A stretch of DNA of 64,000 nt from Leisingera sp. ANG1 (GTDB taxonomy: Bacteria > Pseudomonadota > Alphaproteobacteria > Rhodobacterales > Rhodobacteraceae): contig NZ_AFCF02000007.1 of NCBI RefSeq assembly GCF_000203975.2, positions 124,001 through 188,000 on the forward strand, read 5' to 3'. Below, piece after piece: positions 45,061-46,379 of the stretch (position 1 is its first letter; each line of letters opens with the position of its first letter). A program made the translations under genes and the position numbers. The notes under the pieces were generated by a model, which did not search any database, was not told the origin of the DNA, and saw only the letters and a program-made list of their open reading frames with translations.

Positions 45061-45696
45061 ATGACCCGCTCGCATATTCCCGGCATTCTTGCCATGGCCG
45101 CCGTGGTGGTGGCCTCCAACGTCCTGGTGCAATTCCTGTTCGGCAACTGGCTGACCTGGGGCGCCTTCACCTATCCGGTGGCTTTCCTGGTCACCGATGT
45201 GATGAACCGCGTCTACGGCGCTGCCGCCGCGCGCAAGGTCGTGGTGGCGGGCTTTATCACCGGGGTAATCTGCTCGCTGATCGGCACGCAGATCATGCTG
45301 CAGGGCGATGGCTTCACTTACCCGGCGGTGACCCTGCGCATTGCGCTTGGCTCCGGCCTCGCCTTCCTGACCGCGCAGATGCTGGACGTTGCCATCTTCT
45401 CTGCACTGCGCGAGGGGAAATGGTGGCGGGCGCCGCTGGCCTCCACCCTGATCGGCTCCTCGGTGGACACCGCGATCTTCTTCACTGTTGCCTTCTCCGT
45501 CTCGCTCGCCTGGATCGAACCGGCCAATGACGTATCCTGGGCGGGCGACATGCTGCCTCTGATCGGACAGGGGCCGGTGGTGCCCTACTGGGTCTCGCTG
45601 GCCTTCGCCGACTGGCTGGTGAAACTGTCGCTGGCGCTGCTCGCGCTTGTGCCCTTCCGCATCATCGTGCGTAAGCTCTCCGCAAAGACCACATGA
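45061..45696 (+). CDS. yhhQ: Queuosine precursor transporter (VUT/YhhQ family)
   Basis: A 211-residue membrane protein with about six helices of the VUT/QPTR family (NVLVQF, WLTWGAFTYPVAFLVTDVMNRVYG). It imports preQ0 or preQ1 for queuosine tRNA modification. The conserved TYPVAFLVTD and DTAIFF segments are visible. It is separated from the phytase-like gene by about 175 bp, including repeat C. Confidence 0.9.
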   Translation: MTRSHIPGILAMAAVVVASNVLVQFLFGNWLTWGAFTYPVAFLVTDVMNRVYGAAAARKVVVAGFITGVICSLIGTQIMLQGDGFTYPAVTLRIALGSGLAFLTAQMLDVAIFSALREGKWWRAPLASTLIGSSVDTAIFFTVAFSVSLAWIEPANDVSWAGDMLPLIGQGPVVPYWVSLAFADWLVKLSLALLALVPFRIIVRKLSAKTT

Positions 45697-45703
45697 TTTT
45701 GTT

Positions 45704-45731
45704 TTGACATCTGCCGAATCTGTGGCAGGCT
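45704..45731 (+). promoter_or_regulatory. Predicted promoter of the arfB leader
   Basis: TTGACA (45704-45709) and CAGGCT (45726-45731) are 16 nt apart, close to the ehuB promoter pattern TTGAAA-16-TAGGCT. The leader ORF begins about 28 nt downstream of the likely start site. Confidence 0.5.
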
Positions 45732-45751
45732 GGGCTTACACGAAACATCAG

Positions 45752-45881
45752 AAAGGAGGTGCCCATTGTCTAGAGAAGCTATGGAGAGCAGTGCCGGAAC
45801 AGTTCAGAAGGAGTGCGGCCGAGGCAGCCCTTGGTACGTATAGATCACTGAATTGGTGCTGACCTAACCGGTGCACCTCCT
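45752..45881 (+). promoter_or_regulatory. Sequestrable Shine-Dalgarno of the leader ORF
   Basis: AAAGGAGGT (45752-45760) is a near-perfect ribosome site. AGGAGGTGC (45754-45762) is the exact complement of GCACCTCCT (45873-45881), 110 nt downstream. The pairing would close off translation of the leader ORF. Confidence 0.6.
45766..45843 (+). CDS. Candidate 25-residue leader peptide upstream of arfB
   Basis: TTG 45766 follows the Shine-Dalgarno AAAGGAGGT by six bases and opens a 25-codon frame ending in TAG. The peptide is LSREAMESSAGTVQKECGRG followed by SPWYV (the first residue would be Met). I know no family for it. The last codons (GGC AGC CCT TGG) contain CAGCCCTT (45825-45832), which is identical to the 3' part of the downstream terminator stem. 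This makes the ORF a plausible attenuation leader for arfB rather than a free-standing peptide, but the latter is not excluded. Confidence 0.55.
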   Translation: MSREAMESSAGTVQKECGRGSPWYV

Positions 45882-45898
45882 ATCATCTCGAAGGGCTG
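45825..45898 (+). promoter_or_regulatory. Possible antiterminator pairing
   Basis: CAGCCCTT (45825-45832) in the leader ORF can pair over eight bases with AAGGGCTG (45891-45898), the 5' arm of the terminator. GGAACAG (45796-45802) is a second ORF segment that can pair with CTGTTCC (45896-45902). Either pairing would prevent terminator formation. Confidence 0.45.
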
Positions 45899-45922
45899 TT
45901 CCCCGCGTGTGGAACAGCCCTT
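45891..45922 (+). terminator. Intrinsic terminator/attenuator upstream of arfB
   Basis: AAGGGCTGTTCC and GGAACAGCCCTT form a perfect 12-bp stem with an eight-base loop, followed by TCGATTTT. It ends 37 bp before the arfB ATG. Confidence 0.8.
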
Positions 45923-45959
45923 TCGATTTTAAGATCCCCTTCCGCAAACCACCCAAGCC

Positions 45960-46379
45960 ATGATCCGCATCAACGACCAGATTACCCTGCAAGACTGGGA
46001 AATGACCGAGAGCTTCATCCGCGCCTCGGGTCCCGGCGGGCAGAATGTGAACAAGGTGGCGACCGCCGTTGAGCTGCGGTTCGAGGCCGAGCGCTCGCCT
46101 GCGTTGGCGCCCCCGGTCAAATCGCGGCTGAAACGGCTGGCCGGGCGGCGCTGGACCAAGGACGGCGCCATCATCCTGCAATGCGACGAAACGCGGTCCC
46201 AGCAAAGGAACCGCGAGATCGTGCGCGAGCGGCTGGCGGAGCTGGTGCGCAAGGCGCTGGTGGCGCCGAAGCGGCGGATCGCCACCAAACCGACCCGCGG
46301 CTCAGTCCGGCGGCGGCTGGACGCCAAGAAGCAGCGCGGCGAATTGAAAGCGACGCGCGGTAAGATCGACCCGGATTGA
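45960..46379 (+). CDS. arfB: Alternative ribosome-rescue factor ArfB (YaeJ)
   Basis: A 139-residue peptidyl-tRNA hydrolase that releases peptide from ribosomes stalled without a stop codon. It has the RF-1-like domain with GGQ (residues 26-28, SGPGGQNVNK) and a basic C-terminal tail (KRRIATKPTRGSVRRRLDAKK) that enters the mRNA channel. ATG 45960 has no visible Shine-Dalgarno and lies 37 bp after a strong terminator. Expression therefore probably depends on read-through of that terminator or on an internal start I cannot see. Confidence 0.93.
   Translation: MIRINDQITLQDWEMTESFIRASGPGGQNVNKVATAVELRFEAERSPALAPPVKSRLKRLAGRRWTKDGAIILQCDETRSQQRNREIVRERLAELVRKALVAPKRRIATKPTRGSVRRRLDAKKQRGELKATRGKIDPD

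Follow-up and report, generated by a model that had tools for sequence, protein, structure and literature searches.

The window, that is, the whole stretch of 64,000 nucleotides from Leisingera sp. ANG1 that was analyzed, contains an intergenic region between a gene for a Vut_1 family transporter of the queuosine precursor transporter type and arfB, a gene for an ArfB-type peptidyl-tRNA hydrolase. A sequence-only reading had described this region as a likely leader-peptide attenuator of arfB. All the sequence elements that it named are present where it placed them, and they are given below together with the two genes and the RNA stems derived by comparison.

45061-45696, + strand: upstream gene, Vut_1 family transporter (Pfam PF02592, 5.5e-30)
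45704-45731, + strand: putative promoter of the RNA gene, with -35 box TTGACA at 45704-45709, 16 nt, and CAGGCT at 45726-45731 (sequence)
45738-45930, + strand: RNA of inferred extent, starting at about 45738 and ending in the T-rich terminator tail (fold, RF01867 match)
45750-45761, + strand: extended Shine-Dalgarno AGAAAGGAGGTG (able to pair with the 3' end of the own 16S over 12 nt)
45754-45762, + strand: stem P1, 5' side, in the Shine-Dalgarno (47-sequence alignment)
45763-45784, + strand: hairpin P2, holding the start codon (47-sequence alignment)
45766-45843, + strand: ORF of 25 codons, TTG start at 45766, stop TAG at 45841-45843 (sequence, comparison)
45794-45871, + strand: stem P3 (45794-45797 with 45868-45871) and inner helices, with unpaired CTAAC at 45864-45868 (alignment)
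45796-45802 and 45825-45832, + strand: GGAACAG and CAGCCCTT, respectively, segments of the proposed antiterminator pairings
45873-45881, + strand: stem P1, 3' side, the anti-Shine-Dalgarno GCACCTCCT (sequence, alignment)
45891-45930, + strand: intrinsic terminator, 12-bp stem 45891-45902/45911-45922 (sequence, comparison)
45960-46379, + strand: downstream gene arfB, with RF-1 domain (Pfam PF00472, 3e-20)

The features of this element exceed chance, as seen in its fold, its DNA matches and the conserved TTGACA box. Folding of the RNA strand at 45738-45935 gave -77.8 kcal/mol (z -5.0), and none of 200 shuffles was as low; the z values for three relatives of the RNA were -5.3, -3.6 and -3.2. The DNA search showed a match in 33 of 101 related genomes, comprising all 21 of the genus, among them the own genome, plus 12 from other genera, and in one set of relatives the Vut_1 gene stood upstream of the element in 30 of 30 loci. 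For 79 non-redundant relatives, which were picked by peptide pattern and include a few sequences from other groups, the best TTGACA-like box upstream was exact in 43 in comparison to 0 of 79 shuffled, and it lay 51-54 nt 5' of GGAGG in 60, so that the promoter claimed by the sequence-only reading appears to be conserved. The terminator, which had been claimed as well, gained support from being called in 211 of 249 elements, in comparison to 2 in a stretch lying 600 bases further along (not counting loci that ended before it) and 7 in single-base shuffles, and its stem carries two-sided changes in 7 of 10 pairs among 47 Rhodobacteraceae sequences. With both promoter and terminator conserved, the region holds a putative independent intergenic transcript. 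A simple consensus scan listed neither the TTGACA/CAGGCT promoter, because CAGGCT is far from TATAAT, nor the terminator at 45891-45930, because its T-run is interrupted. The one other promoter-like site on the + strand in that scan, CTGACC-16-TATCAT at 45859-45886 (9/12, expected 0.2), lies within the RNA gene and is directed at arfB; its -10 part is not conserved in other genera (alignment A1).

No Rfam family was found in the window at the curated cut-off. In a permissive search, with E calculated for the 281-base region, positions 45743-45920 aligned to positions 1-159 of RF01867, the Caulobacter sRNA CC2171, with 31.6 bits (E 3e-5) against a gathering score of 75; the alignment is full-length and significant, and because the curated score is not reached the window RNA is called a distant relative rather than a filed member. 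Shared with CC2171 are the GAAAGGAGGTGATCCAGTGTC core in the same place, the full-length alignment and the terminator hairpin at the end, while the window lineage differs in having a stem that locks the Shine-Dalgarno instead of one between codons 3-5 and the pre-terminator segment, and the accessible part of the Rfam entry lists an sRNA without an ORF, whereas the window RNA has one. Ten loci rescanned with RF01867 all aligned full-length with 31.3-47.8 bits, and 7 of these had not previously been found via the model. A search of the class with this model under stricter filters gave E values of 0.001 or less in 60 of 289 genomes (27.1-90.5 bits), with 9 of 289 over the cut-off, and the hallmark GAAAGGAGGTGRTCCNRTGTC with at most one mismatch was found at 83 places in 82 of 385 class genomes, in comparison to 1 match for the reversed pattern. 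Most class genomes gave no match by either the model or the pattern, and both undercount, since the model search missed the window's own genome and the hallmark fails to match it.

In the Rhodobacteraceae, the family pattern occurred once each in 110 of 159 genomes. The named genomes, with at least 119 stretches, include Sphingomonas, Novosphingobium, Bradyrhizobium, Mesorhizobium, Methylobacterium and Bosea among the matches listed, where Ancylobacter, Roseococcus, Inquilinus, a Caulobacterales record and Rhodobacteraceae are also found. One further element was seen in a record titled Gemmatimonadota (L190), which may be misbinned. The layout that recurs in many Alphaproteobacteria consists of a Shine-Dalgarno complementary to 16S over 10-18 nt, an ATG, GTG or TTG start, an ORF of 14-36 codons and a terminator, and the kinship between orders rests on the Shine-Dalgarno and start motif, this layout and the Rfam match.

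The strong Shine-Dalgarno noted in the sequence-only reading was borne out, as AGAAAGGAGGTG provides 12 nt of complementarity to the 3' end of the own 16S gene, CTGGATCACCTCCTTTCT (the gene was identified by eye). For the wider comparison 257 elements were gathered, 3 of which were dropped for want of a stop in the stretch read, leaving 254; the patterns behind a good share of them prescribed GGAGGTG, NTGT with C or T next to it and, in some cases, ATG/GTG, and these columns are thus set by construction. The run complementary to 16S in the 254 elements, in which GGAGGTG is preset by the patterns, was 14-18 nt long in 184 and 10-13 nt in 70, and 176 had 15-18 nt. The lineage with the TTG start has a shorter match, with GCCC instead of GATCC. 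At arfB itself (45960) no Shine-Dalgarno is visible in the window, as had been claimed.

The length of the ORF was 14-36 codons in 250 of the 254 elements and none was shorter, the stops being TGA in 126, TAA in 65 and TAG in 63, while the +1 and +2 frames were closed by a stop within fewer than ten codons in 94 and 119 elements and ran past 36 codons in 41 and 53, respectively. Fairer counts for the start codon were obtained from the 30 loci that the Rfam model ranked highest, which were gathered without a start-codon condition and all have ATG (16) or GTG (14) at one spacing with ORFs of 18-30 codons, and from the 83 hallmark places, where the one mismatch allowed could hit the start base and where TTG was seen in 4, CTG in 0 and otherwise ATG or GTG. 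In Rhodobacteraceae outside the window genus, the stop stands at codon 19, giving an 18-codon ORF, in 38 of 43 loci (TGA 22, TAG 10, TAA 6), and within the window genus the ORF has 25 codons in all 17 distinct sequences, ending in TAG (16) or TAA (1). Positions 45820-45822 of the window read CGA (codon 19) where most other Rhodobacteraceae have the stop, and the ORF runs 7 codons further in the genus.

Synonymous and nonsynonymous changes were counted pairwise rather than on a tree and for 18-codon ORFs only. For 60 Rhodobacteraceae ORFs, synonymous change was 0.427 in this frame in comparison to 0.275 expected, and 0.247 in comparison to 0.236 and 0.246 in comparison to 0.198 in the other two frames. 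The excess in this frame suggests that there may be some constraint on the peptide in Rhodobacteraceae. For 23 Sphingomonadales ORFs there was no excess in this frame (0.197 in comparison to 0.248 expected) and an excess in the other two (0.384 in comparison to 0.261 and 0.440 in comparison to 0.242). The peptides of different groups have little in common beyond Met-Ser. The results thus point to an ORF that seems to be selected to be translated, with starting and stopping preserved and the codon test mixed, and the short translated ORF proposed by the earlier reading does look translated from its kept start, stop and length. As starting and stopping are kept and the peptide mostly drifts, it seems to be translation itself that matters.

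To describe the structure of the RNA in Rhodobacteraceae, a consensus of 33 pairs was derived from 47 sequences (alignment A2) and scored on the same alignment, which favours the structure; 95.7% of its cells were paired and two-sided changes numbered 66 in comparison to 21.1 in shuffles, 0 of 500 shuffles reached 66, and pairing dropped to 64% or less when the structure was slid. The 47 sequences come from 57 non-redundant ones picked for TAACC/TAACT, 10 having been dropped by hand, mostly those with no called terminator, and Rhodobacteraceae-like sequences lacking the motif were left in the rest group. Stem P1, in which the Shine-Dalgarno pairs with the anti-Shine-Dalgarno, was paired in 96.5% of cells, and all 6 of its counted pairs vary on the 3' side only, as expected if 16S holds the 5' side; P1 taken alone is therefore backed by pairing and not by two-sided change. 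Independently of any alignment, the longest complementary run between the two segments averaged 8.6 nt in comparison to 5.7 nt in single-base shuffles (74 sequences), and in 25 of these 74 Rhodobacteraceae sequences the predicted unpaired fraction of the Shine-Dalgarno was 0.02, in comparison to 0.29 when the downstream part was shuffled. The anti-Shine-Dalgarno claimed by the sequence-only reading would thus sequester the ribosome site in the modeled RNA. Hairpin P2 was paired in 97.1% of cells in the 47 sequences, and in 2 of them the TTG start (45766-45768) comes with a compensating change of its partner at 45781, from G-U to U-A. P3 was paired in 95.7% with two-sided changes in 3 of 4 pairs, and CTAAC (45864-45868) is invariant in the 47 sequences, partly as an effect of their selection for TAACC/TAACT.

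Outside the Rhodobacteraceae the fold is a different one. In 56 sequences, hand-picked from 176 others and leaning to SHC or SHG starts (alignment A3), codons 3-5 pair with a segment before the terminator in 87.2% of cells in comparison to 76.5% shuffled, with 35 two-sided changes in comparison to 9.8 shuffled (0 of 500), and the pairing collapses when slid; this stem was first spotted in SHC/SHG-type sequences such as A3 holds. In three other groups the Shine-Dalgarno was somewhat more open than in shuffled sequences (0.37 in comparison to 0.27, 0.32 to 0.28 and 0.34 to 0.28), and it was less open in Bradyrhizobium (0.17 in comparison to 0.25, 7 sequences) and in the rest (0.22 in comparison to 0.26), so that among the groups compared it is locked in Rhodobacteraceae only. 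By these comparisons the gate is built differently in different lineages, and with folds that diverge in this way a single mechanism for all of them is doubtful.

Synteny with arfB is strong in Rhodobacteraceae. Among 108 genomes that have the element and an arfB among the matches listed (2 further genomes have no listed arfB place), arfB follows on the same strand within 450 nt in 91, and the element is kept with arfB not adjacent in 17, where arfB lies 0.7-7.5 kb on along the same strand in 8 and on another contig or strand in 9, the latter perhaps in part owing to contig breaks. A terminator was called in 6 of nine non-adjacent loci, and the other 3 show by eye a hairpin with a T-containing tail. 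In 30 loci from other families there was no match to arfB or vut1 within about 1.5 kb. For 146 other loci with a called gene downstream, this gene was on the opposite strand in 83 and on the same strand within 400 nt in 54, counts that are approximate as neighbors were predicted with a simple rule based on ORFs and GC3, and the ten loci checked by Pfam gave varied families in the 9 that had a match. The T-run and gap loci were picked by peptide pattern and include a few sequences from other groups; for these, the T-run beside arfB was not weaker than at the other loci of the group (6.27 in 56 loci in comparison to 6.22 in 27 loci), and the gap from terminator to arfB was 11-147 nt with a median of 38 (56 loci). 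In the window 37 bases separate the terminator stem from the arfB ATG at 45960, and the stretch 45923-45959 leaves little space between them, here as in many genera. A clear Shine-Dalgarno was present in few of 45 arfB starts, and some hold AAGG or GAGG. As the gap is often too short for a separate promoter, arfB in many genera probably relies on read-through or on a promoter within the RNA gene, and it may be read-through of the terminator that feeds it. A leaderless arfB transcript is another candidate.

The two antiterminator pairings that had been proposed were both at the level of shuffled sequences in the 47 Rhodobacteraceae, with no excess covariation: CAGCCCTT:AAGGGCTG was paired in 63.4% of cells in comparison to 63.0% shuffled, and GGAACAG:CTGTTCC in 58.9% in comparison to 58.6%. 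As a candidate, a conserved set of mutually exclusive antiterminator and terminator stems formed by either pairing was accordingly rejected. The attenuator reading is thus left with its promoter, short ORF, Shine-Dalgarno, anti-Shine-Dalgarno and terminator, but loses the switch by which translation of the leader was to control arfB, which is unsupported, and the comparative data do not favor an attenuator model for arfB.

A weaker version of the leader idea, specific to the family, is still alive, given the gap of 11-147 nt before arfB: in Rhodobacteraceae the element would act as a cis leader, with arfB supplied mainly by read-through or an internal promoter and its mRNA tuned by leader translation. 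The adjacency in 91 of 108 genomes, a gap often too short for another promoter, the scarcity of clear ribosome sites among the 45 arfB starts and the promoter-like site at 45859-45886 directed at arfB are all consistent with it. We nevertheless hold it to be unlikely, since neither proposed antiterminator is conserved, P1 and the terminator have no bases in common, so that termination need not respond to the state of the ribosome site, the element is kept in the 17 genomes where arfB is not adjacent, T-runs are of equal strength whether or not arfB adjoins, and arfB gave no match in the 30 loci from other families. If the element were instead a small messenger RNA whose product is the peptide, the kept start, stop and length would be accounted for, and so would the synonymous enrichment in Rhodobacteraceae, found mainly in this frame (0.427 in comparison to 0.275); this we consider quite improbable, as the peptides of the groups are alike in little beyond Met-Ser, Sphingomonadales have no synonymous excess in this frame (0.197 in comparison to 0.248) and the first codons lie within conserved stems. 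An ordinary sRNA that acts by base pairing, with the Shine-Dalgarno-like stretch serving as its seed or as part of its fold and an ORF that is there by chance, would agree with the strong folds and with Rfam filing the Caulobacter relative as 'Gene; sRNA', but a start codon that is ATG, GTG or, in 4 of the 83 places (one mismatch allowed), TTG and never CTG, and three stop codons that interchange at one position, make this highly improbable.

The reading which we prefer, and regard as fairly probable on the comparative evidence, is that of a standalone sRNA gene ended by a terminator, gated by the ribosome and translated, rather than a switch made for arfB. The sequence comparisons support the family, the selection on start and stop, the stems, the terminator and the presence of the element without arfB, and from these we infer transcription, translation, two-state behavior and an output that is the RNA rather than arfB. 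According to this model, an exceptionally strong ribosome site would drive translation of a 14-36-codon ORF, with few demands on the peptide that it encodes. In the free RNA of Rhodobacteraceae, the Shine-Dalgarno would be locked by the anti-Shine-Dalgarno in P1 and the start codon held in P2; the Shine-Dalgarno would stay open if a 30S subunit bound it on the nascent RNA, with about 115 nt still to be transcribed before the anti-Shine-Dalgarno appears, and ribosome binding to the nascent RNA would compete with the closing stem so that translation sets the state of the RNA. The RNA would then be either ribosome-bound or closed and could report or buffer translation initiation. The outputs considered were stability, a freed anti-Shine-Dalgarno or 3' segment, and arfB read-through, and the output may be the RNA itself, through its stability or a freed 3' part, rather than arfB. 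As a tentative extension, which we consider possible though somewhat doubtful, the element might be a class-wide gauge of ribosome availability, where the near-maximal 16S match loads 30S on a 14-36-codon ORF indifferent to its sequence, the bound or unbound state sets the fold and fate of the RNA, the gate of Rhodobacteraceae has been rewired to a lock of Shine-Dalgarno and anti-Shine-Dalgarno, and the gene is kept directly before a rescue factor that gets a trickle of read-through.

The data suggest that RF01867, a family classed as non-coding, extends well past its curated members and may well be translated, which raises the question of whether translation of a tiny, weakly constrained ORF sets the state of a small RNA; the position of arfB in Rhodobacteraceae would link the RNA to ribosome rescue if read-through occurs. 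The Caulobacter sRNAs reportedly stem from the work of Landt et al. in 2008. Spot 42 is a dual-function sRNA that carries a tiny ORF, and the window RNA differs from it in having the ORF at its 5' end, behind an extended Shine-Dalgarno, in a peptide that is not conserved between groups and in having no known target.

In the accessible parts of the following sources, Spot 42 is named in a reference title of the small-proteome study of Sinorhizobium meliloti (PMC10117765), which found 33% of 54 new sORFs on annotated sRNAs; ribosome profiling in Caulobacter showed most ncRNAs to be untranslated and two earlier ncRNAs to be in fact translated (Schrader et al. 2014, PMC4117421); and in Rfam 15 the RF01867/CC2171 structure gained one covarying pair (PMC11701678). 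RF01867 also stands in a prediction list for Mesorhizobium huakuii (PMC5596092), and neither that list nor the database table of Rfam 15, in the portions available, gives it a function. The trpL/rnTrpL leader of S. meliloti (PMC10117765, accessible part) is similar in its short ORF, stems and terminator, and its terminated RNA may act alone, whereas the window element has no conserved antiterminator among the two tested and its downstream gene varies across the class. The extended Shine-Dalgarno starts of Staphylococcus aureus (PMC13009471, accessible part) likewise combine a long pairing with 16S and weak start codons, but they are a common mRNA feature there, and here the site belongs to a small RNA gene with usually one match per genome. 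The literature search, which had most subscription papers outside its reach, returned no description of translation for the RF01867 family and none of this element before arfB; searching by peptide strings gave no match, nothing pertinent was found on how arfB is regulated or on any sRNA named at the locus, and papers on Ruegeria and Paracoccus sRNAs do not name the locus in the main-text parts matched by the search terms.

Some minor observations were also made on the gathered loci. Four of them (L068, L151, L152 and L248) have the same extended Shine-Dalgarno start with ORFs of 55-59 codons that by eye resemble secreted small proteins, and these may belong to another gene that shares the ribosome site. 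A GAGCARCCT-like motif (peptide EQP), which resembles GAGGCAGCCCTTGG of Rhodobacteraceae, lies near the end of the ORF in L051, L055, L147, L222 and other loci of the SS/SN group. On the Inquilinus contig that carries the element, a whalefall-1 RNA was found at L231:7753-7804 with 44 bits in comparison to a cut-off of 37.
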